Shown here piece after piece: positions 2,611 to 61,690 of a stretch of DNA of 64,000 bases. The DNA comes from Meghimatium bilineatum (taxonomy: Eukaryota > Mollusca > Gastropoda > Stylommatophora > Philomycidae), in NCBI GenBank assembly GCA_034231615.1, contig CM067298.1, positions 4,514,713-4,578,712 on the forward strand, written 5' to 3'. Below the pieces are notes generated by a model. That model saw only the letters and a program-made list of their open reading frames with translations, was not told the origin of the DNA and did no database searches. Numbering within the stretch: position 1 is the stretch's first letter; the number at the start of each line of letters is the position of its first letter. A program made the position numbers and the translations under genes.

Positions 2611-3051
2611 AACACAACTATGGCTACACACGTATTTCTAACTATACTGACTTATAGAAAAGGCAAACCCTGTTTATATTAAACAAGTGTTAAATTATCT
2701 AGAGTCAGTAACACTCGCTGACAAACATCTATAAAAGCAAGCCTGGATGATCCTTCCAAATATGCTGTGCAGAGTCAATGAGGCTTCCAACCAATTTCCA
2801 TCCGAGGATGACAAAAAAGAAATAATAATGGGAACATAATGATATGTCATTGCAGTGCTCTAAAAAATATGGAAGAGGTCAGCGATCGATACATGGGCTT
2901 CATTGATCAGACACTTTCTTTGAGAGTGTCGGCAACAATTTTGTTATTATACAACCAGGTCGAGATAATTAGGTCGCGCTTAACAGTTGTTTCCTGTGCA
3001 GGAAATGCTTTCTTACTGTTAAAAAGTGTTTAAATCTAAATCATAGCACTC
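2611..3051. other. Unassigned unique sequence
   Basis: No recognised feature between two arrays. Confidence 0.4.
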
Positions 3052-3835
3052 AAGATATACCTAGAGGTACTCAAGATATGCTTACAAGTACTCAAAATAT
3101 ACCTACAGGTACACAAGATATACTTACAAGTACTCAAGATATACCTACAGGTACTCAAGATATACTTACAAGTACTCAAGATTTACCTACAGGTACACAA
3201 GATATACTTACAAGTACTCAAGATATACCTACAGGTACACAAGATATACTTACAAGTACTCAAGATTTACCTACAGGTACACAAGATATGCTTACAAGTA
3301 CTCAAGATATACCTACAGGTACACAAGATATACTTACAAGTACTCAAGATTTACCTACAGGTACACAAGATATACTTACAAGTACTCAAGATTTACCTAC
3401 AGGTACTCAAGATATACTTACAAGTACTCAAGATATACCTACAGGTACTCAAGATATACCTAGAGCTACTCAAGATATACCTACATGTACTCAGGATATA
3501 CCAAAAAGTACTCAAGATATACGTACAAGTACTCAAGATATGCCTACAGGTACTCAAGATATACCTACAAGTCATCAAGATATACCTACACGTACTCAAG
3601 ATATACCTACACGTACTCAAGATATACCTACAGGTACTCAAGATATACCTACACGTACTCAAGATATACCTACAGGTACTCAAGATATACTTACAAGTAC
3701 TCATACATACAGGTACTCAAGATATGCCTAGAGCTACTCAAGATAAACCTACAAGTACTCAAGATGTACCTACAGGTACTCACGATATACATACAGATAC
3801 TCAATATATACCTACAGGTGCTCAGGTCTCACAGT
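3052..3835. repeat. 21-bp tandem array with 42-bp higher-order period
   Basis: About 37 units of the type actcaagatatacctacagg. In the first half two variants alternate (cttacaa and cctacag), making a 42-bp dimer. The second half loses this alternation and is more diverged. Because 21 is a multiple of three, both strands stay open for more than 100 codons (for example TQDIPTG / TQDILTS on plus). No gene evidence. Confidence 0.93.
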
Positions 3836-4268: not shown

Positions 4269-4459
4269 ATATGAGCTAATCAATACAAAGTAACTGCGTG
4301 AAACGTAACAACAATTAGACTTACGTAAAACACAGGTTTATATATGGCTTCAATGAGACACGACATAATATAGCTAAAACTAGTAGGTAATGATGGGCAA
4401 TGATGAGCACACAAGAAATCATAAAAATTACAATACGCAAATCACATTCAACGTTTAAA

Positions 4460-4596
4460 CCTGAATATCAAAAGCACCATGATGACCATTGCCATTGAAG
4501 TGTGTGGCCACATGAGTGGATGTCCTGTGCTTACGGGTACTCCTGTGGCCACACACTTCAATGGCGATGGTCATCATGCCGCTTTTGATATTCAGG
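4460..4596. repeat. 58-bp-stem inverted repeat inside the PLE
   Basis: 4460-4517 pairs with 4539-4596 across a 21-nt loop with few mismatches. The right arm encodes the His-Phe-Asn...Gly-His part of the GIY-YIG remnant, so the left arm is an inverted copy of coding sequence. Confidence 0.85.
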
Positions 4597-4718
4597 TCAC
4601 CTCCATCAGATCTTGCACCACCGATGATAGATCTAGGTATGCTCTAGAAAATCGTCTCATTTTTGAATTGGGTACACTCAAGCCTTTTGGATTCAGTTCC
4701 GAGCACTCTTATGTCTAG
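4540..4718 (+). pseudogene. C-terminal remnant of PLE GIY-YIG endonuclease
   Basis: Open to a TAG at 4716-4718. The translation contains PVATHFNGDGHH, then ENRLIFELGTLKPFGFS. The HFN...GH block and the E-x-x-LI-x-x-LGTL-x-P-x-G block are characteristic of the C-terminal end of Penelope-like retroelement proteins, where the GIY-YIG nuclease nicks target DNA. Only the last ~58 codons remain; the GIY-YIG core and the whole RT are missing. The upstream in-frame ATG at 4479 lies in the inverted arm and is not a genuine start. Confidence 0.7.
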
Positions 4719-4904
4719 TACAGGGTTGGTGTGGTCTTTGTCTTTATTCTTTATGTTCTGTCATTTACTCATTTTTTTTGTTCGTTTCGTTTCCAAGTAT
4801 ATGTACGTTTTTTATGTACTTTCTGACCTTCCGGCATTTCATTTCCATATTTCCGTTGGATGTTGTGATACTTTTTCCATTCGTCGTCCTTTGATGTTTT
4901 GTTT

Positions 4905-4945
4905 GTGTCTTGATAAAGACCTTTTGGTTGAAACGTTGAATGTGA
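4905..4945 (+). other. Hammerhead-like hairpin in PLE 3' region (degenerate)
   Basis: The order cttgataa, agacc-tttt-ggtt, gaaacg resembles the CUGAUGA / stem II / GAAA core of hammerhead ribozymes known in PLE terminal repeats. The first box deviates from the consensus, so activity is doubtful. The same layout appears at about 14130 and, on the minus strand, at about 45660. Confidence 0.3.
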
Positions 4946-5072
4946 TTTGTGTATTGTAATTTTTATGATTTCTTGTGTGCTCATCATTGCCCATCATTAC
5001 CTACTAGTTTTAGCTATATTATGTCGTGTCTCATTGAAGCGATATATAAACCTGTGTTTTACGTAAGTCTAA

Positions 5073-27514: not shown

Positions 27515-28588
27515 ATAGATATAATCATAACTAGTTTCTGTTAATGCAACAATCATATAATGTGAACATAACTAGTTTCTGTTAGTGGAACAATCATATA
27601 ATGTGAACATAACTAGTTTCTGTTGGTGCAACAATCATATATTGTTTTGTTTGTTTGTTTTGCGTTCGCTCCATTATAACCAGCACGGATATCTGTGCGA
27701 TTTCTGCCGGGAGCGTAATTACGTTGTGCAACCGTTATGCGCCTTGTAGGCCTAGCACATCCGATTTCGGCATAATATATTGTTAACATAAGTAGTTTCT
27801 GTTAGTACAACAATCATATATTGTTAACATAACTAGTTTTTGTTAGTGCAACAATCAGATATTGTTAACATAACTAGTTTTTGTTAGTGCAACAATCAGA
27901 TATTGTGAACATAACTAGTTTCTTGTTAGTGCAACAATCATATATTGTTAACATAACTAGTTTCTTGTTAGTGCAACAATCAGATATTGTGAACATAACT
28001 AGTTTCTTGTTAGTGCAACAATCATATATTGTTAACATAACTAGTTTCTTGTTAGTGCAACAATCATATATTGTTAACATAACTAGTTTCTGTTAGTGCA
28101 ACAATCAGATATTGTTAATATAACTAGTTTCTCTTAGTACAACAATCATATATTGTGAACATAACTAGTTTCTTGTTAGTGCAACAATCATATATTGTTA
28201 ACATAACTAGTTTCTGTTAGTGCAACAATCATATATTGTTAACATAACTAGTTTCTGTTATTGCAAGAATCATATATTGTTAACATAACTAGTTTCTGTT
28301 AGTGCAACAATCATATATTGTTAACATAACTAGTTTCTGTTAGTGCAACAATCATATATTGTTAACATAACTAGTTTCTGTTAGTGCAACAATCATATAT
28401 TGCTAACATAACTAGTTTCTGTTAGTACAACAATCATATATTGTGAACATAACTAGTTTCTGTTAGTACAACAATCTTATATTGTTAACATAACTAGTTT
28501 CTGTTAGTACAACAATCATATATTGTGAACATAACTAGTTTCTGTTAGTACAACAATCTTATATTGTTAACATAACTAACTTCTGCTA
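27515..28588. repeat. 41-bp tandem array, interrupted
   Basis: More than twenty copies of a unit with aacataactagtttctgtta and gtgcaacaatcatatattgt; a 42-bp subfamily has gtttcttgtta. Interrupted by a 130-bp retroposon at 27645-27774. Confidence 0.95.
27645..27774 (-). mobile_element. Short (AAAC)-tailed retroposon with 8-bp target duplication
   Basis: Flanked by atatattg (27637-27644, 27775-27782). The left end is the (TTTG)n complement of an AAAC tail, so the element is on minus and 5'-truncated. Its 130 bp (gcgttcgctccatt, gagcgtaattacgttgtgca, cctagcacatccgatttcgg) match the start of the 1.33-kb element at 47.74 kb. Confidence 0.75.
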
Positions 28589-36510: not shown

Positions 36511-36696
36511 CTCTTTTACACTGCTTTACTCCTTTACACTGTTTTACTCCTTTACACTCCTTTACACAGGAATGGCTGTTCCGTAGCTCACGTGATATAT
36601 ATATATTGATATTATCTAATATTTCACAATTTACCACTATTTCTTCGTCTTTGTTCTTTACGCTTACTCTCTCAACCTTCTACACATTTTAATTAC

Positions 36697-37490
36697 CGAG
36701 TTTATTTAATATCTACACAGAGAACATCTATAAACATACAGAATGAAATCCAGGACTCAAGAATCAATGGGAAAATAATAAACAACCTTAGATATGCAGA
36801 TGACACTGTTCTTTTAGCAGAAAGTGAGAATGAACTACAAAGACTAATAGATCAGGTCAATAAATCAAGTAAAGAATATGGACTGGATATAAATATCCAC
36901 AGAACAAAAACCATGATAAAAACACAGAAGAACAGACGCTAAATAAACATATATGGAGAGAAACAGACGCTAAATAAACATACATGGAGAGAAACAGACG
37001 CTAAACAAACATACATGGAGAGAAACAGACGCTAAATAAACATACATGGAGAGAAACAGACGCTAAATAAACATACATGGAGAGAAACAGACGCTAAACA
37101 AACATACATGGAGAGAAACAGACGCTAAATAAACATACATGGAGAGAAACAGACGCTAAATAAACATACATGGAGAGAAACAGACGCTAAACAAACATAC
37201 ATGGAGAGAAACTACAACGAGTAGAACACTATCGATATCTTGGACACATAATCATACATGACGGCAGATGTGAAACAGAAGTTAAAAGGAGAATAGGAAG
37301 ATCTTACTTCAGGGTACAGTCGAAGGGAAGCGAGCAAGAAGCAGGCAGAGATACAAGTTGGAGAGTAACATCACAAGATGGACAGATTACAGTCTAGCAG
37401 AGTGTACCACCAAAACCAGAGACAAGGAATATTGGAAGTCTGTTGCAGTCAAGCGTCCTTGCGGAGACAACACTTTATGATGATGATGAT
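36697..37490 (+). mobile_element. LINE RT fragment interrupted by its own minisatellite (family A)
   Basis: Begins within the RT palm (PSLFNIYTENIYKHTE), then NNLRYADDTVLLAESENELQ with the catalytic YADD, and QVNKSSKEYGLDINIHRTKT. At the position of NGEKLQQV in the copy at 54.4 kb, a 31-bp segment has been repeated about nine times (36936-37213). After it the frame resumes as LQRVEHYRYLGHIIIHDGRC and ETEVKRRIGRS. A deletion then joins the C-terminal part, RQRYKLESNITRW..SLAEC. Ends near GDNTL at 37480. Confidence 0.82.
36936..37213. repeat. 31-bp array derived from RT coding sequence
   Basis: About nine copies of a unit with ataaacatacatggagagaa and acagacgct. The first copy (aaataaacatatatggagag) best matches the ancestral RT sequence encoding I-N-I-Y-G-E-K. 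Confidence 0.95.
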
Positions 37491-37516
37491 GTGTCTTTTA
37501 TAAGACCAACATCATT

Positions 37517-37725
37517 TCATCTTTAGAATAGCACATGTGTAATATACAAGGTAGATCGACTTTAGAATAGCACATGTGTAATATACAAGGTAGATCGACT
37601 TTAGAATAGCACATGTGTAATACACAAGGTAGATCGACTTTAGAATAGCACATGTGTAATACACAAGGTAGATCGACTTTAGAATAGCACATGTGTAATA
37701 TAAAAGGTAGATCGGCTTTAAGAAT
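37517..37725. repeat. 39-bp tandem array
   Basis: Five copies of a unit with tttagaatagcacatgtgta and caaggtagatcgac; a multiple of three, so open on minus. Confidence 0.94.
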
Positions 37726-37744
37726 ACAAATAATAACATTCATA

Positions 37745-38158: not shown

Positions 38159-39348
38159 GTTATGTTATATTATGTTCCTTCAGTGCCACAGGCGGCGCAT
38201 AGGGAAGAAACCATAGCTTTCCATTTCTGTTTTTGTGTTGCCAGGTCTTTCAATTGTTGCGTGTTGTTTAGGTTCATTGACATGCCTTCTCTTTTAATGG
38301 TTCTCCGTAGAGTTTCTCAATGTCTCCCTCTTCTTCTTACTCCAGGTGGCACCCACTATAGTGACTGCTTGGGAATTCTTAGGCTGTTCATTCTGATAAC
38401 ATGGCCGATGTAAGCCCAACGCCTTTGTCTAATGAAGAAAGATATATAGGTTTGTTTGCTTTCCTCTCTTATAGTAGTGTTAGATTTAAAGTCACTCCAC
38501 TTAACATTCAGAATTGTACGTTGGCATTTGTTTTCAAAGGAGTCGAGTCTCTTATCTGTGGCTTTTGTGGCTTTCCAACTTTCGCATCCATATGATAGAA
38601 TAGGGATGATGTTGAAGTTAAACAACCTGAGTTTTGTGGTGTTTCTTAGTGTGTTTGACGTCCAGATGTTACGTAGTTTATTGAAAGCAACCGCTGCAAG
38701 GGCAATACGGTGTAAAATTTCTTTTGATGAGTCTCCATCCAATGCTAGATTGGTGCTTAAATATGTATAATTGTTGACTTTTAATAATGGAACATTTTGA
38801 ATTTCTATGTTGTCGTTGGATCTCGTATAATCTAGTATATGAGTTTTTGATGTGTTGATTTTCAGGACTATCTGATTTGAGTAGTGTTGGAGATTGTCAA
38901 GCTTAGATTGAGCATCTGTGTGGTTTGCGCTCAAAAGGGCCAGGTCATCTGCGTAGTCAAGATCTTAGAGAACGGTATTATTAATCCATTTTATTCGTGT
39001 CAGCTCATATTCAGTGCTCTTTCTCATGACCCAATCAATAGCGACGCAGAAAAGTAATGGGGACATGATGCATCCCTGTTTAACGCCCGTAACAACTTGG
39101 AACCATTCTGACTTCTCAGTGTTCGTTTGAACACAGCAATGTGAGTTGGTGTAAAATGCCTTTATATCATTGATTATTTTAGTAGGAAAACCGTATTGTT
39201 GTAGAATATTCCATAACGTAGGCCGATGAAGACTATCAAATGCTTTTTCAAAGTCAACAAAGTTGATTATGAGCGGAGATTGAAATTCGAGTGATTCTTC
39301 AATGATGATGCGAAGAGAAAATATATTGTCTGTGCAGGAGCGAGCTGA
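38159..39348 (-). mobile_element. 5'-truncated LINE, nearly continuous RT frame (family C)
   Basis: One minus-strand frame runs from about 39345 to a TAA at 38172-38170, broken only by three stops (TAA near 38965, TAG at 38356, TGA near 38320) and no frameshift. Order: IINFVDFEKAFDSLH (motif A Asp), VTGVKQGCIMSPLLF, then LDYADDLALL (catalytic YADD), VNNYTYLS, SYGCESW, RRWAYIGHVIRMNS and RTIKREGMSMN. The ORF ends 11 bp from the 3' end, with almost no 3' UTR, as in RTE-like elements. Perfect 10-bp duplication tcacaagaat at 38149-38158 and 39349-39358. Confidence 0.88.
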
Positions 39349-44114: not shown

Positions 44115-44865
44115 ATTAGAACATTAGAATCATAACACCATAGAATGATAGAAACATTAGAATCATAACACCATAGAATGATAGAAACAGAATCATAACA
44201 CCATAGAATGATAGAAACATTAGAATCATAACACCATAGAATGATAGAAACATTAGAATCATAACACCATAGAATGATAGAAACATTAGAATCATAACAC
44301 CATACAATGATAGAAACAGAATCATAACACCATAGAATGATAGAAACATTAGAATCATAACACCATAGAATGATAGAAACAGAATCATAACACCATACAA
44401 TGATAGAAACAGAATCATAACACCATAGAATGATAGAAACATTAGAATCATAACACCATAGAATGATAGAAACAGAATCATAACACCATAGAATGATAGA
44501 AACATTAGAATCATAACACCATAGAATGATAGAAACATTAGAATCATAACACCATAGAATGATAGAAACATTAGAATCATAACACCATACAATGATAGAA
44601 ACAGAATCATAACACCATAGAATGATAGAAACATTAGAATCATAACACCATAGAATGATAGAAACAGAATCATAACACCATACAATGATAGAAACAGAAT
44701 CATAACACCATAGAATGATAGAAACATTAGAATCATAACACCATACAATGATAGAAACAGAATCATAACACCATAGAATGATAGAAACATTAGAATCATA
44801 ACACCATACAATGATAGAAACAGAATCATAACACCATAGACTGATAGAAACATTAGAATCATATC
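44115..44865. repeat. 33/30-bp two-length array
   Basis: About 24 units of agaatcataacaccatagaa, with a cattaga (33 bp) or caga (30 bp) start and a catag/catac variant. Reading from the minus strand, a nine-unit order of lengths and variants repeats twice in a row. Both lengths are multiples of three, so minus stays open for 248 codons as MILMFLSFYGV/MILFLSLYGV. No start context, flanking exons or domain: not called as a gene. Confidence 0.95.
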
Positions 44866-47514: not shown

Positions 47515-47738
47515 AATGTAACACTAGTAATGTAAGACCTTGAGAATTCAGGACCTCTAAAATAAAGTACCAGTACTGTAAATTCTCTAGATTACAGGGC
47601 CTACAAAATGTAGTACAGTTGCTAAAAATCTACATAATTCAGGGTATCTAAAATGCAGTTCACCTATTGTACTTTATAATTCATGACACCTAAAATGAAG
47701 CTACAACTACTGTCAAATTTCTATAGTTCAGGACATAT
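47515..47738. repeat. ~46-bp degenerate tandem array, left part
   Basis: Four to five diverged units with tctataattcaggacatcta and aatgcagt. Continues at 49083 beyond the inserted retroposon. Confidence 0.8.
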
Positions 47739-49069
47739 GTTTGTTTGTTTTGCGTTCGCTCCATTGTAACCATCACGGATATACGTGCGATTTCCGCCAG
47801 GAGCGTGATTACGTTGTGCCACCGTTATGCGCCTTGTAGACCTAGCACATCCGATTTCAGCATGCCTTGACAATTCGGGTGGGCTACCCTTAGCCTGTGA
47901 CAGCCTCTATATCTGTCTCCAGGCATGTTTAGTGGCGACTCTTCGCCCAGACGATTTTTGCTCTCTTCTGACTCGCACGAGGTGTTCCACTGTCTATGAA
48001 CTTGCCTCGTGTAATTAGACGTGCTGTGCCTGTGCCCATTGGGTACTGAACGGTTTCTCATCCGTGAGCCTGGTTCCTTAAGGGGAATAACTCAACAGAG
48101 GAGTTGGACCCTGGCTCTTTCGTCCTCTTAGCCGAGGTGTCATTCACCGACATCGTGTACCCCTTGTCCAAGTTCGAGTCTCACACCACGCGTTTGAGAG
48201 CAAGGCGTTCTCGAGCTGAGCGTCCTTGTCCCAATAGCGCCTGAGCCCATCAGGTACTGAACCCTTTCTCTCTTCAATTGTATTTCCAGTGTAGGAAAAC
48301 CTGCAGTAGAGTTGGGCCAGGGCTAACTCGTTGTCCCTTTTGTGCCTGAGCCCATCGGGTTCGGAACCCTTTCTCTCTGCAAGTGTACTTCCGGTATAGG
48401 GAACCTTGACAGTAGAGTTGGGCCAGGACTACCATCGTTGTCCCTTTCTTGCCTAAGCCCATCGGGTACAGAACCCTTTCTCTTCGCGAGCATATTTCCG
48501 GTTTAGGAAGGCTCGACATAAGAGTTGGGTTAGGTCTTCTTGCTTTACCAGACGCCAATGGATGGGTCTGGGTCTCTGCCTGTAAGGAACACAGGTAACT
48601 AGAAGCTCGTCTCGAGCTGACGGAGCTTGTAGTTCCCCTTTCCTAGAGCCTTTTCACTTTCTATTTGCAGTTCGCGCTGCCCTCTAGCGCTGTTCTGCCT
48701 TTTCATTGTTTCATTGTACTCGATATGAAATATATTTGTCTCTCGCCATGCATCTACCTTTACGTGCATTTTACATTGGCCGCCCCTCCAATGTTCGGAC
48801 TGGACTGACTAGCTTCACTGTATGTTGACAGTGTCGCTATATGTGGTGATGCTGGTGGTGTCGGAGATATTGTCTGTCTCTTGTGCAATCAAATCTCTTT
48901 CCATCTGCTACCTCCACATTCTCGGACACGATCCCCAAATGATTTGGCCAGAATCAGCTCGAGCTGCTGTATTTCTGTTTCCAGGGTGCACCGCGTGGAG
49001 GTACATTTGGGATCTTGGTTATCTGCTAACCCTGGGTCCGCCTAAAGCAATGCGTTCCCTTTGCACCAC
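47739..49069 (-). mobile_element. 1.33-kb (AAAC)-tailed retroposon with 13-bp target duplication
   Basis: Flanked by gttcaggacatat at 47726-47738 and 49070-49082. The left end gtttgtttgttttgcgttcg is the complement of an AAAC tail, so the 3' end is on the left and the strand is minus. The first ~130 bp match the truncated copy at 27.6 kb. Segments such as acgttgtgccaccg and agcacatccgatttcagcat also resemble the SINE-2 body. The interior is richer in G+C and holds ~105-bp repeats (48034-48560). No protein recognised: the 48822-49136 plus frame is open but unassigned. Confidence 0.7.
48034..48560. repeat. ~105-bp degenerate tandem repeat inside the retroposon
   Basis: gcccat(c/t)gggtac-ga-accctttctc recurs at 48034, 48245, 48350 and 48457, with gttgggccagg between. 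Spacings of 211, 105 and 107 bp suggest five units, one badly decayed. Confidence 0.8.
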
Positions 49070-49215: not shown

Positions 49216-50668
49216 GAGCATCTTGGAAATATATTTATTATCGAATAACCGAGTGATATGAGATGTCTGTTACGAAATTTCTGTGGACAAAAAGAAGGTT
49301 AGCTTGACGGTGCCCATCTCCACTACAAGTCTATAAACTAGTACAAATCTCGAATAACACCTATTCCTTTGTACGGATATGAGAGTCTAACAATTATATC
49401 TGATATGAGAGGAGAATACAGGTTTTTGAAAACACATGTTACATACGAGTATTGCGCATTCGTTAAAGAGAACATACAAGCAACATATACGTGAGAAATA
49501 AAATAAATACTTTAGCAGGGCAACATCTCATGGCAATGATTATTTGAATATCAATTGATAGATGTCGTTTCACATTATTTTGAATATCGCTGTTCCTTGA
49601 AGTGAAATGGTTATTCTCTGATATCTGTGTTGAGAATTTAGAAATTCTTGTCCAGTACAAGAAATGAGAGTACAATTGAAATTCAAGGAAAACCGCGTAG
49701 TTTTCTAGCAGTGGTGGCAGTGAATATATCGATGTTGTTTATCGGTTTCCACAAGAACCGCACTGTGATACAGGTAGATCTGAGCCTCGGACTTGAAATC
49801 TGCGTTCACAGCTAAAGAGACGGAGGGCGCTAATGATACTTTATTTCACCTCTCGTATGGCAACGCTTTAATTAGAGATACTTACTAAACCGTGTGGCAA
49901 CGATGACCTAGTCAAGGGTGCAAGGAACATGGCCAGTGACTTCATTCCAGTATTGGCGATGGAGACGACTAAGGACGGTTAGGGATAGACTGACAACCTG
50001 TCACCTGTAAACCAAGCATCATTGTCATATCTTGTCTCGACATCTTACTGTTGGATTCCATCAATTAATGCTCATGGGTGACGTAGAGATGTAGGGCTGA
50101 GATCATTGCACATTTGTCCTTTTGTGACAGATTTGTATGTGACAGACTTGTATGTGACACGGGATGCTAAATGTGCAGTCAGCAAATCTGTGGACGAGTC
50201 AACAAACCTGACCGCGGAATGCTGATTTAGGTGACTCAGAAGTGTGTTCTGTGCTCCTGGCAGCAGGTGGTAATCGTGTGATGCTAGCACGCTGGACAAC
50301 CTTCATTCCGGGGCAAAACCTGCATCCATAAACCCGTACACAATCACGTATTTGAAACAATCTTATGAGTCCGGATGTTGCAACAGTTACACATCTGAGA
50401 AGAACCTATATTATTATCATAATGTCTATCTCCTGCCAAGAGCTGCCTGAAAACAGCTAAAGAGATTATTTCATCATCATCACCTTGCTTGACATGAGCT
50501 GAATGTAAGATGTATATATGTTATTCAATATGTGTGCTGTTCCACGTAAAACTGCTATTTAACAATTCATATTGCTTGCATATATATTTCTGATCAGTTA
50601 TATATGTTATTCATGCAGTTATATATGTTATTCATGCAGTTAACTGCTGGCTAAGGTTTAATTTTACT
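49216..50668. other. Unassigned unique sequence
   Basis: A small duplication, gtatgtgacagacttgtatg (50134-50160). Open frames (50072-50299 minus) unrecognised. Confidence 0.4.
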
Positions 50669-51360: not shown

Positions 51361-51654
51361 GAAGTTTAGACAAAGAATGGAAAAGACTTATAGAAAAGAG
51401 GATGAACATTGTTGGTCTATTTAGCAAATCATACCACAGAATAATGTAACTCAGATGCTAAAACATGGCTCAAAATGAGTAGAGAATTGACTTGAGTGTA
51501 CTCGAATTACCCCATATGTACTGCGTCTCTCTAATCGAAATGGCACGTCACCTGCAATAGTACAAATCATCGCACGTAACTCCACAGGTTCAAGTTAGAA
51601 TCCCCAATGGGGAATTAATATCCCAAATGCGGAGGAGAATTTCTTTAGTTGAAC

Positions 51655-52795
51655 ACTGTAACTATAAATGGTTAAGTGTCAACCACAGAACAATGTAATT
51701 AAGCAGTTAAGTGTGGACCAAACAACAATATAACTATACGAAGTTAAGTGTGGACCACACAGCAATGTAAATATAAGCAGTTAAGTGTGGACCACACAGC
51801 AATGTAAATATATAAGCAGTTAAGTGTGGACCACACAGCAATGTAATTATAAGCAGTCAAGTGTGGACCACACAACAATGTAACTATAAGCAGTTAAGTG
51901 TGGCCCACAAAACAATGTAACTATAAACAGTTCTTCTTCTTCTTCTGCTTTTGTTCTCAAACTCCTGCAGATTAGCAGATTGTAGTCCGGACAACGGAAT
52001 GCGTTGTGTCATGGTTTACAGCATTGCTTTGATATCTGCGCCTTTCGGCCTGACACATCCAACTTCAGCACTGCTTTGGGTCACTGACCCTATATGGGAT
52101 AGCCAACTCCATCCCATAACCTCCTTAATCGCCTTTTACGACATGCGTGGAAGGTAAACAGTGTTGCTATTCTTTGCTCCCCTTTCGGGCCCCGGCAACA
52201 CACGGGCGTATAAACAGTTAAGTGTGGACCACACAACAATGTAATTATAAACAGTTAAGTGCGGAACAGAACAATGTAATTATAAGCAGTTAAGTGTCGA
52301 CCACACAACAATGTAACTATAAGTAGTTAAGTGTGGACCACACAACAATGTAACTATAAACAGTTAAGTGTGGACCACACAACAATGTAACTATAAACAG
52401 TTAAGTGTGGACAACACAACAATGTAACTATAAACAGTTAAGTGTGGACCACACAACAATGTAACTATAAGCAGTTAAGTGTGGACCACACAAAAATGTA
52501 ACTATAAACAGTTAAGTGTGGACCACACAACAATGTAACTATAAACAGTTAAGTGTGGACCACACAACAATGTAACTATAAACAGTTAAGTGTGGACCAC
52601 ACAACAATGTAACTATAAACAGTTAAGTGTGGACCACACAACAATGTAACTATAAACAGTTAAGTGTGGACCACACAACAATGTAACTATAAACAGTTAA
52701 GTGTGGACCACACAACAATGTAACTATAAACAGTTAAGTGTGGACCACACAACAATGTAATTATAAACAGTTAAGTGTGGACCGATTAAGTGTGG
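51655..52795. repeat. 37-bp tandem array, interrupted by a SINE
   Basis: About 23 copies of a unit with cagttaagtgtggaccacac and aacaatgtaactat. The right block is more uniform than the left. Confidence 0.96.
51931..52208 (-). mobile_element. Full-length SINE-2 with 11-bp target duplication
   Basis: Lies in the 37-bp array, flanked by tataaacagtt (51922-51932, 52209-52219; two bases shared with the tail). On minus it starts acgcccgtgtgttgccgggg, runs through tgtcgtaaaaggcgattaag, gggtcagtgaccc and aactcctgcag-complement sequence, and ends in (GAA)n. No clear A and B boxes, so it may not be tRNA-derived. The cgtaaaaggcgattaagg core resembles a motif that I recall from molluscan SINEs. The tail matches the LINE at 57.2 kb. 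Confidence 0.75.
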
Positions 52796-53599: not shown

Positions 53600-54905
53600 C
53601 TTTGATTCTGCCATGTAGTCATCATCATCAGGTGTCGTCTCCGCAACGAAGGTTGGCTGCAACATACCTCCAACATTCCCTCTTGTTTTGGTAGTGTACT
53701 CTGCTAGACTGTAACCTGTCCATTGTGTGATGTTACTCTTCCACTTGTATCTTTGCCTACCTCTTGCCCGTTTCCCTTTGACTTTATCCTCGTCATCAAC
53801 AAGGTGTCATGTCTTTTAATGTGTCCAAAATATTTTATTTGCCCAATGTTTATTTTCTGTAAAAATTCTTTCTTCATATCAAGTGTTGTTAGAACCTTTT
53901 TCTTTAATTTCTTTCCTTTCCATGATGTTCTCTCTATTCTTCTATATACCCACAACTCAGTCATCAATGTGTCTTCTAATTGTTTATTTAGTGTCCATGT
54001 TTATGAGCCATACATTAATATAGAATAGATGTAGCCTTTTATAATTCTCATTTTTAACGTGTGTTTAACTTGTTTAGATGTTAAGCGTCCGGTTCTGTAG
54101 CTGGGTGGTACAAGACACGTCTATGACGGCCAAGGTACATAGTTCGATCCCCGCCATAGGCAATTGTACATATGGACCGTTCACAAAGCACTGGCAAACT
54201 ACTGAACGTATTTATATTGCCTAGACATACACTACGGCCAAAAATGCTGGGTTGATAACTACGTCCTGAATAGGATATGCTACCAATTAGATGTTATTCT
54301 TTTCCTCATGTCATTGAAGATACTTTTAGCCATTTCTATTCTCATTTTAACTTCTGTTTCACATTTGCCATCATTTGTGACTATGTGTCCAAGATATTGA
54401 TACTGTTTAACTTGTTGTAGTTTCTCTCCATTTATTTTGGTGTTTATCACCTGATCTTCTGTGACTTTGCTGATTATCATGTTTTTTTTATTTTTTATGT
54501 TTATACCTAGTCCATATTCATTACTTGATTTATTGACTTGATCTATTAGTCTTTGTAGTTCATGTTCACTTTCTGCTAAAAGAACAGTGTCATCTGCATA
54601 TCTAATGTTGTTTTTATTATTTTCCCATTGATCTTGAGATGATAAAATACATCCTTATCTTACCCCTCTTCTTATTTCTATGTATGCTGATTAGCTGTTT
54701 TCACACCTTATTGATGCAGTTTGTTCCCAATATATATTTCTAACCAGTCTGATGTCTTTTCCATCTATGCCTATTTCTTGAAGAAATTTAATTAATTTTT
54801 CATGTTGGACTTTGTCAAAGGCCTTGCTGTAGTCTATGAAGCAAATAAAGATTTTTTTGGCCTTCTATATATTTATCTATCACTAGTCGGATACTCAGTA
54901 TAGCT
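53600..54905 (-). mobile_element. LINE RT fragment carrying a SINE (family A)
   Basis: Minus-strand order: DYSKAFDKVQHEKLIKFLQE (motif A Asp), IRRGVR.GCILSS, a deletion, NNIRYADDTVLLAESEHELQ (YADD), NGEKLQQVKQYQYLGHIVTN, then the SINE insertion. After it come IYSILMYGS.TWTLNK, SWKGKKLKKKVLTTLDMKKE, IGQIKYFGHIKRHDT and RGRQRYKWKSNITQWTGYSL, ending at GDDT near 53620. Stops and frameshifts throughout. This is the best reference in the window for the family-A copies at 11.2 and 36.7 kb. Confidence 0.82.
54084..54286 (+). mobile_element. tRNA-derived SINE inserted in the RT, 10-bp target duplication
   Basis: ttagatgtta flanks it at 54074-54083 and 54287-54296. The 5' part reads like a tRNA: A box tagctgggtggtacaaga, B box tagttcgatccccgcc, at tRNA spacing. 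The 3' part (acatacactacggcc, atgctgggttgataactacg) is a non-tRNA body. A SINE and not a tRNA gene, because the acceptor stem and anticodon arm do not fold cleanly. Confidence 0.82.
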
Positions 54906-60995: not shown

Positions 60996-61294
60996 ACGTC
61001 TATCAATATATAAAACACTTTAGGTGTCTTTGTGACCTCTAATACATTTTGGTTGTGCGTCCTGATAAAGTCTACTTGGACATTGTCCGCTGGTTGAAAG
61101 AGACGGTCAACTCATACCTTACCTACCTACCCATCTATGTCTATCAATATAGCACCGGATGTGATCTCGTTTGTTCCCGTCTACGAAATCATCACTGAAC
61201 ACAGCGACATCGCAGAGATTACGACACTGAACTGTGGGGATCGATACACATTCTTGTGTAATAGCATTCTGGACGAACATGTTGTCTGGTGATC
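60996..61294. other. Unassigned sequence
   Basis: A plus frame open at about 61143-61292 (IITEHSDIAEITTLNCGDRY) has no recognised domain or splice signal. Confidence 0.35.
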
Positions 61295-61690
61295 ATGATT
61301 AAGTAATCCATTTAGCTGTGAGCAGGTAACTCTTGACACATGATGATGAAATAATCCCATTAGCTGTGAGCAGGTAACTCTTGACACATGATGATGATGA
61401 ACTAATCCCTTTAGCTGTGAGCAGGTAACTCTTGACACATGATGATGATGAACTAATCCCTTTAGCTGTGAGCAGGTAACTCTTGACACATGATGAACTA
61501 ATCCCTTTAGCTGTGAGCAGGTAACTCTTGACACATGATGATGATGAACTAATCCCTTTAGCTGTGAGCAGGTAACTCTTGACACATGATGAACTAATCC
61601 CTTTAGCTGTGAGTAGGTACCTCTTGACACATGATGATGATGAACTAATCCCTTTAGCTGTGAGCAGGTAACTCTTGACACATGATGTGA
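61295..61690. repeat. 45-54-bp tandem array
   Basis: Nine copies of a unit with ttagctgtgagcaggtaact and cttgacacatgatgat. Length varies through the number of ATG triplets. Confidence 0.94.

Follow-up and report, generated by a model that had tools for sequence, protein, structure and literature searches.

The window analysed here is a 64-kb stretch of DNA on contig C1, lying 4.5 Mb in from the contig start. At 36931-37209 it carries a minisatellite of nine head-to-tail units, each exactly 31 bp, which sits inside a decayed non-LTR retrotransposon with reverse transcriptase (RT) sequence on both flanks (Table 1). The initial annotation had placed the array at 36936..37213; its nine 31-bp units stand, but its start falls 5 nt inside unit 1. 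A 3-nt AAC at 37210-37212, which is also how the unit begins, extends the array to 37212. When the window was searched with the 31-mer, allowing up to 3 mismatches, there were 9 matches, every one of them within the array, and 100 shuffles gave 0.

Table 1. Features of the window and carriers of arrays derived from the same LINE segment
Feature	Position	Strand	Repeat	Basis or remark
5'-truncated family-A LINE fragment left of array, YADD	36685..36930	+		blastn to genomic copies; RVT_1 on 36763-36930 reading
Minisatellite from RT segment	36931..37209	+	nine 31-bp units	T,T,C pattern, 93-bp period
AAC common to unit start and right flank	37210..37212	+		3-nt microhomology, array border
LINE RT right of array	37210..37299	+		frame +2 relative to left part
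LINE 3' end after internal deletion versus other copy	37311..37492	+		ATG/TGA-type tail; 37311-37486 aligns with 53790-53619
Unrelated minisatellite	37521..37726	+	39-bp	~29 bp past LINE 3' tail
Decayed second LINE copy of family A, array-free at site	53619..54864	-		genomic copy L009
Single-copy homologue of unit in second window LINE	54423..54455	-		pre-amplification state
Carrier: window copy			31 bp x 9	
Carrier: L002			22 x 13	
Carrier: L006			18 x 11	
Carrier: L041			22 x 3	
Carrier: L056			37 x 2	plus third partial copy
Carrier: L057			28 x 2	
Carrier: L058			47 and 22 mixed	
Carrier: L059			45 x 17	
Carrier: L063	C6:5.087 Mb		28 x 41	
Carrier: L083			two copies	filler between copies; only ~46 bp LINE there
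Carrier: L084	C9:2.20 Mb		28 x 14	
Carrier: L122			28 x 6	
Carrier: L123			39 x at least 7	

The array and its host element

The left flank reads as RT, YADDTVLLAESENELQRL, with the YADD motif, and matches RVT_1 with E=1.3e-8, in agreement with the initial annotation; its score is 35.2 bits and that of the 54-kb piece is 34 bits, against a cut-off of 29.6. The right flank reads as the next RT part, YRYLGHIIIHDGRCETEVK, a short piece for which a Pfam search on its own gave no match. The host is assigned to the LINEs by its reverse transcriptase domain and by the structure of the family copies, which are truncated to differing extents on the 5' side but share their 3' end.

Once the array is collapsed to a single unit, the copy aligns over its full length, and colinearly throughout, with the reverse complement of the LINE at 54.3-54.6 kb. 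Unit 1 matches 54423-54455 (minus strand) at 24 of 31 letters with a 2-nt gap, a score reached by 0 of 20,000 shuffles. The single-copy RT piece at 54.4 kb had been named as the counterpart of the unit, and it is indeed the sole top scorer: among 127,584 window 33-mers, taken from both strands with the array excluded, only this colinear piece scores as high. At the level of sequence, the nine units are shown to be copies of the element's own RT segment at that point. The unit homology is colinear, the transposable element (TE) lies on both sides, and other copies are array-free (see below), which are the marks of a TE-derived minisatellite.

The RT frame had been said to resume after the array, and it does not. 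YADD belongs to the 36691 frame and YRYLGHI to the 36690 frame; eight extra units of 31 bp amount to 248 bp (+2), matching the observed offset of the right part. Were there just one unit, the frame would run unbroken from 36763 save for a stop. A TAA is present in all nine units and would be in frame in the one-copy state; since all nine share it, parsimony makes the stop older than the array. Thus, the proposal that a segment was amplified within a dead LINE is supported, and the copy was probably dead before amplification.

The units vary at two sites only, 14 and 22. Site 14 reads, in order, T,T,C,T,T,C,T,T,C, whereas the variant at site 22 is a T confined to unit 1. Three C units can be placed among nine in 84 ways, 3 of which have a period of three. 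Self-identity of the array is 0.995 at a lag of 93, compared with 0.976 at a lag of 31. The mean difference between units is 2.3%, while between the two LINE copies of the window the flanking parts diverge by ~11-18%, so that the array is either younger than the split of the LINEs or homogenised.

The window as a whole is rich in minisatellites. Its 62 merged arrays (period of at least 10) cover 31% of the 64 kb, whereas five mononucleotide shuffles contained 0-1 arrays; around 29 family copies elsewhere, arrays make up 11.5% of 56,124 flank bases and 1.5% of 39,694 LINE bases. Thus, an array in this window is in itself unremarkable; a visible ancestral sequence is less common, and among the 62 arrays only 36931-37209 is shown to lie inside recognised RT sequence. 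With an identity gain of 0.03 as the threshold for a higher-order repeat, 3 of 25 arrays of at least 5 units pass (44120-44863, whose higher-order repeat is 285 bp, 3048-3824 and 61290-61687); the lag-93 gain of 36931-37209 falls below it.

Several other elements were noted in the window. A SINE-like element (51933-52208) lies within a 37-bp minisatellite (51652-52783) between the two copies of an 11-bp, array-derived target-site duplication, TATAAACAGTT (51922-51932 and 52209-52219). A short element with a (TTTG)n end, at ~27645-27775, lies in a 41-bp array (27526-28585) with a ATATATTG-type duplication, and has a relative at 47738-47863. A lone copy of the 51-bp unit of the 61290-61687 array, 84% identical to it, lies on the opposite strand at 50434-50482, and no homology was noticed in the flanks; both places contain TGATGATGATGA, as does the family-A LINE tail. 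An inverted repeat at 4315-5072, with 147-bp arms that are 98% identical and span 758 bp, is a possible DNA transposon or MITE. On the minus strand at 38356-38964, ~900 bp from the array-bearing LINE, there is a fragment of a different LINE RT, DLDYADDLALLSANHTD, with DUF6451 and a weak RVT_1 match.

Array-free copies and other arrays from the same segment

The search covered the assembly from which the window comes (32 contigs, 1.61 Gb), in which the segment of the array-free LINE has 3,364 first-look candidate places. The best 40 of these were scored and, by their coordinates, 40 of 40 cover the site without an array; 30 of them, the window's own second copy included, were read. Because the best-scoring copies are biased toward the array-free state, a second sample was picked by the 3' half of the LINE, which does not touch the site. 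In this case, 40 of 114 candidates were scored, upstream pieces were read for 35 of the 40, and 20 of the 21 site-spanning copies were array-free. The remaining one, L107, has a 69-bp insertion at the site with ~17 bp doubled around it, and was read as an insertion with flanking duplication rather than as an array. Given the array-free state in both samples, the array is not a normal feature of the element in the copies examined, and these are shown normally to carry one copy of the segment. Comparison with other family-A copies, the check called for at the outset, thus bears out the annotation: neither an array general to the family nor a unit without RT homology was found.

Other arrays were located with a pattern of two GGAGAGAAAC within 2-32 bp before TACAA, which gave 120 genome matches and 0 in a reversed control. 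The matches listed fall into 17 distinct places: 2 are false, and of the other 15, 10 were read around the array and are carriers (the window copy included). L002, L006, and L041, which an array-query search found, bring the carriers read to 13, all with units from the same RT segment, 18 to 47 bp long and present in 2 to ~41 copies. Hence the window array is no isolated case, since this segment was multiplied in further family copies too.

The carriers W37 (the window copy), L006, and L041 could be placed among the family copies. Each is 90-95% identical to its own best family copy (for W37 over 89 columns only), while identity between them is 87.0% for W37-L041, 81.8% for W37-L006, and 84.4% for L006-L041; none are the closest copies of one another. 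L002 is poorly placed in the tree because only ~150 bp of LINE follow its array. Since the placed carriers are not sister copies and unit lengths and borders differ, most carriers look, as far as their sequences tell, like separate events. Among the matches listed, the LINE-derived minisatellite with 28-bp units is present at several sites of C5, C6, C9, and C12, with clusters on C9 (2.20, 2.25, and 2.35 Mb) and C12 (40.9-42.1 Mb); this type has possibly been copied between places and may be a young dispersed satellite family.

A number of candidates were set aside. L120 and L121 are single-copy LINEs with a variant letter; L003, L004, L005, L040, L042-L044, L046-L048, L050, and L051 belong to other repeats, their arrays showing no match to family A; at L045 the LINE end in the vicinity amounts to only 41-44 bp; in L008 and L039 a LINE lies close to or adjoins an array, but at a different LINE position; and L049 and L052-L054 are LINE copies with no array at the site. 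L029 and L030 are family-A LINEs inserted into minisatellites, each having one and the same array unit on either side. A search of viral contigs found no relative.

Probable birth and growth of the array

We consider it likely that the minisatellite was born in an already dead, 5'-truncated non-LTR retrotransposon copy by misalignment at short repeats, followed by misaligned growth. The first 31-bp duplication would have arisen by misalignment between the short repeats that border the segment (putatively AAC/AAC in the window copy, and AAAC/AAAC at 22 bp in the family), through either slippage during replication or unequal exchange between sisters. AAC stands at each border of the window unit, but a repeat of just 3 nt exact, with a chance of ~5% for a random junction by a rough estimate, speaks against this reading. 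In the family, the AAAC just before TACAAC recurs 16 bp upstream in 28/30 and 22 bp upstream in 27/30, against a background of 0.9% for a 4-mer repeat at lag 22, and the 22-bp arrays have exactly these AAAC repeats, 4 nt shared, as borders. Also against it, by the same measure the border of the L006 array has 0 shared letters; its 18-bp unit reads as the 16-bp lag plus two bases. Two broader versions of the idea were rejected, and both results count against it. Microhomology is not a rule throughout the window, given that the border remainders of 28 clean arrays (of the 62) did not differ from uniform (KS p=0.25). Nor do direct repeats predispose the site: for such repeats it ranks 118 among 221 windows along the reference copy, and the one that starts at 1691 ranks 163.

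Growth afterwards would have proceeded via misaligned exchange. The exact 31-bp length of all nine units and the 93-bp pattern fit a putative growth by whole-unit misalignment. Together, the T,T,C rounds at site 14 and the identity at lag 93 make a three-unit stage copied as a 93-bp block the simplest history; the pattern suggests a triplication of that block, and by parsimony such copying was likely a late step of growth.

The position of the arrays within the LINE is a counterpoint to slippage. In 11 of the 13 carriers the LINE starts no more than 45 bp to the left of the array (range 0-39 bp), which ordinary slippage does not predict. In the sample picked by the 3' half, the array-free copies that span the site have an equally close LINE start in 5/20, or in 4/19 when one duplicate pair is counted once. 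With the 45-bp cut-off, which was set after data inspection, the Fisher p is 0.0045 for 11/14 (L107 counted as a carrier) versus 5/20, and 0.0008 for 11/13 versus 4/19. High-identity carriers (L056, 98.6%; L058, 98.6%; L057, 96.3%) have just 2-4 partial re-copies at the 5' junction, which by reading are small and irregular, with short shared letters; L083 has filler between its copies; and in L011 a 12-bp duplication of LINE sequence coincides exactly with the 5' end of that copy, at another LINE position. These observations raise the possibility, which we hold only tentatively, that faulty insertion at the LINE 5' end seeds this class of minisatellite: the last tens of bases would be re-copied by template switching or end joining, giving 2-4 imperfect copies that later expand to 10-40 units. 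If true, retrotransposition would yield tandem arrays as a by-product. A hotspot, a 5'-end effect, or chance among many copies may each be compatible with the carrier positions.

For the window array itself, seeding at insertion, with RT or end joining switching back at the cDNA 5' end to re-copy the last stretch and expansion at the DNA level coming later, seems to us improbable. The window copy, with 246 bp of LINE at the left, is one of the two exceptions to the short left flank (L122, with 97 bp, is the other). In addition, LINE-derived duplications at visible 5' ends are rare: L011 was the one clear case in 26, with L021 doubtful, and a further 26 visible 5' ends yielded no clear case, L098 being weak (8-bp x 2.9 copies across the junction). 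The window copy taken alone may nevertheless be compatible with slippage or unequal exchange, as the initial annotation had it, and with an insertion-time event. We regard two other explanations as very unlikely. One is that an arrayed master element spread the array through retrotransposition, for which the recurrence of the 28-bp version on four contigs might speak; however, the family samples are array-free, the 31-bp unit is confined to the window copy both in the set of 31 scored matches and in that of the 17 listed places, and W37, L006, and L041 are not sister copies. The other is that the LINE inserted into a pre-existing array, or that the array is an artefact of assembly. Insertion of elements into arrays does occur in this genome, but here the unit itself is the piece of RT that belongs at that point, the LINE is colinear on both sides, and different arrays are present at the same LINE site on other contigs. 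Misalignment within a dead LINE copy is the reading that we favor for the window array.

Comparison with known minisatellites

To our knowledge, the beginnings of minisatellites have mostly gone unobserved. The segment studied here offers, in one genome, the 3,364 candidate places (the best 40 scored, all array-free) together with 13 carriers at stages of 2 to ~41 units. Such staged carriers permit the first duplication, the borders, and the growth to be compared directly.

TE-derived minisatellites are well described (PMC3389668, PMC9659126, PMC6947457). Thus, this origin of tandem repeats is already known, and the window array is a further case. Ahmed and Liang 2012 (PMC3389668) give 7,276 human TE-derived cases, of which the two established models explain only 6%. 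Like those cases, the present one would involve a TE segment that was locally duplicated and then expanded; theirs involve human Alu, LTR, L1, and SVA elements, whereas here it is the RT coding part of a LINE, and several arrays come from one segment. In the standing model of Haber and Louis 1998, as cited in PMC3389668 and PMC6947457, minisatellites arise at flanking direct repeats of 5-10 nt. As in that model, a segment between short direct repeats becomes the unit, but the repeats here are of 3-4 nt: flanking repeats of 5-10 bp were not found at the borders of the window array (3 nt), the 22-bp arrays (4 nt), or the 18-bp array (0).

LINE 5' junctions can involve a template jump to the target and microhomology, as described in the available part of PMC2881922. 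Several carriers resemble such junctions in having re-copied LINE pieces and short shared letters; tandem arrays growing from them are not described in that part of the report. The repeated occurrence of arrays at one segment of the LINE, for the most part where its 5' end is truncated, could be new, absence from the literature being weak evidence. A minisatellite within a retrotransposon is also known from Gmr9/GmOgre of soybean, where it is a family feature located between the coding region and the LTR (PMC3305785). The window array, like these, lies within a retrotransposon, but it is inside the RT and is absent from the sampled family copies.
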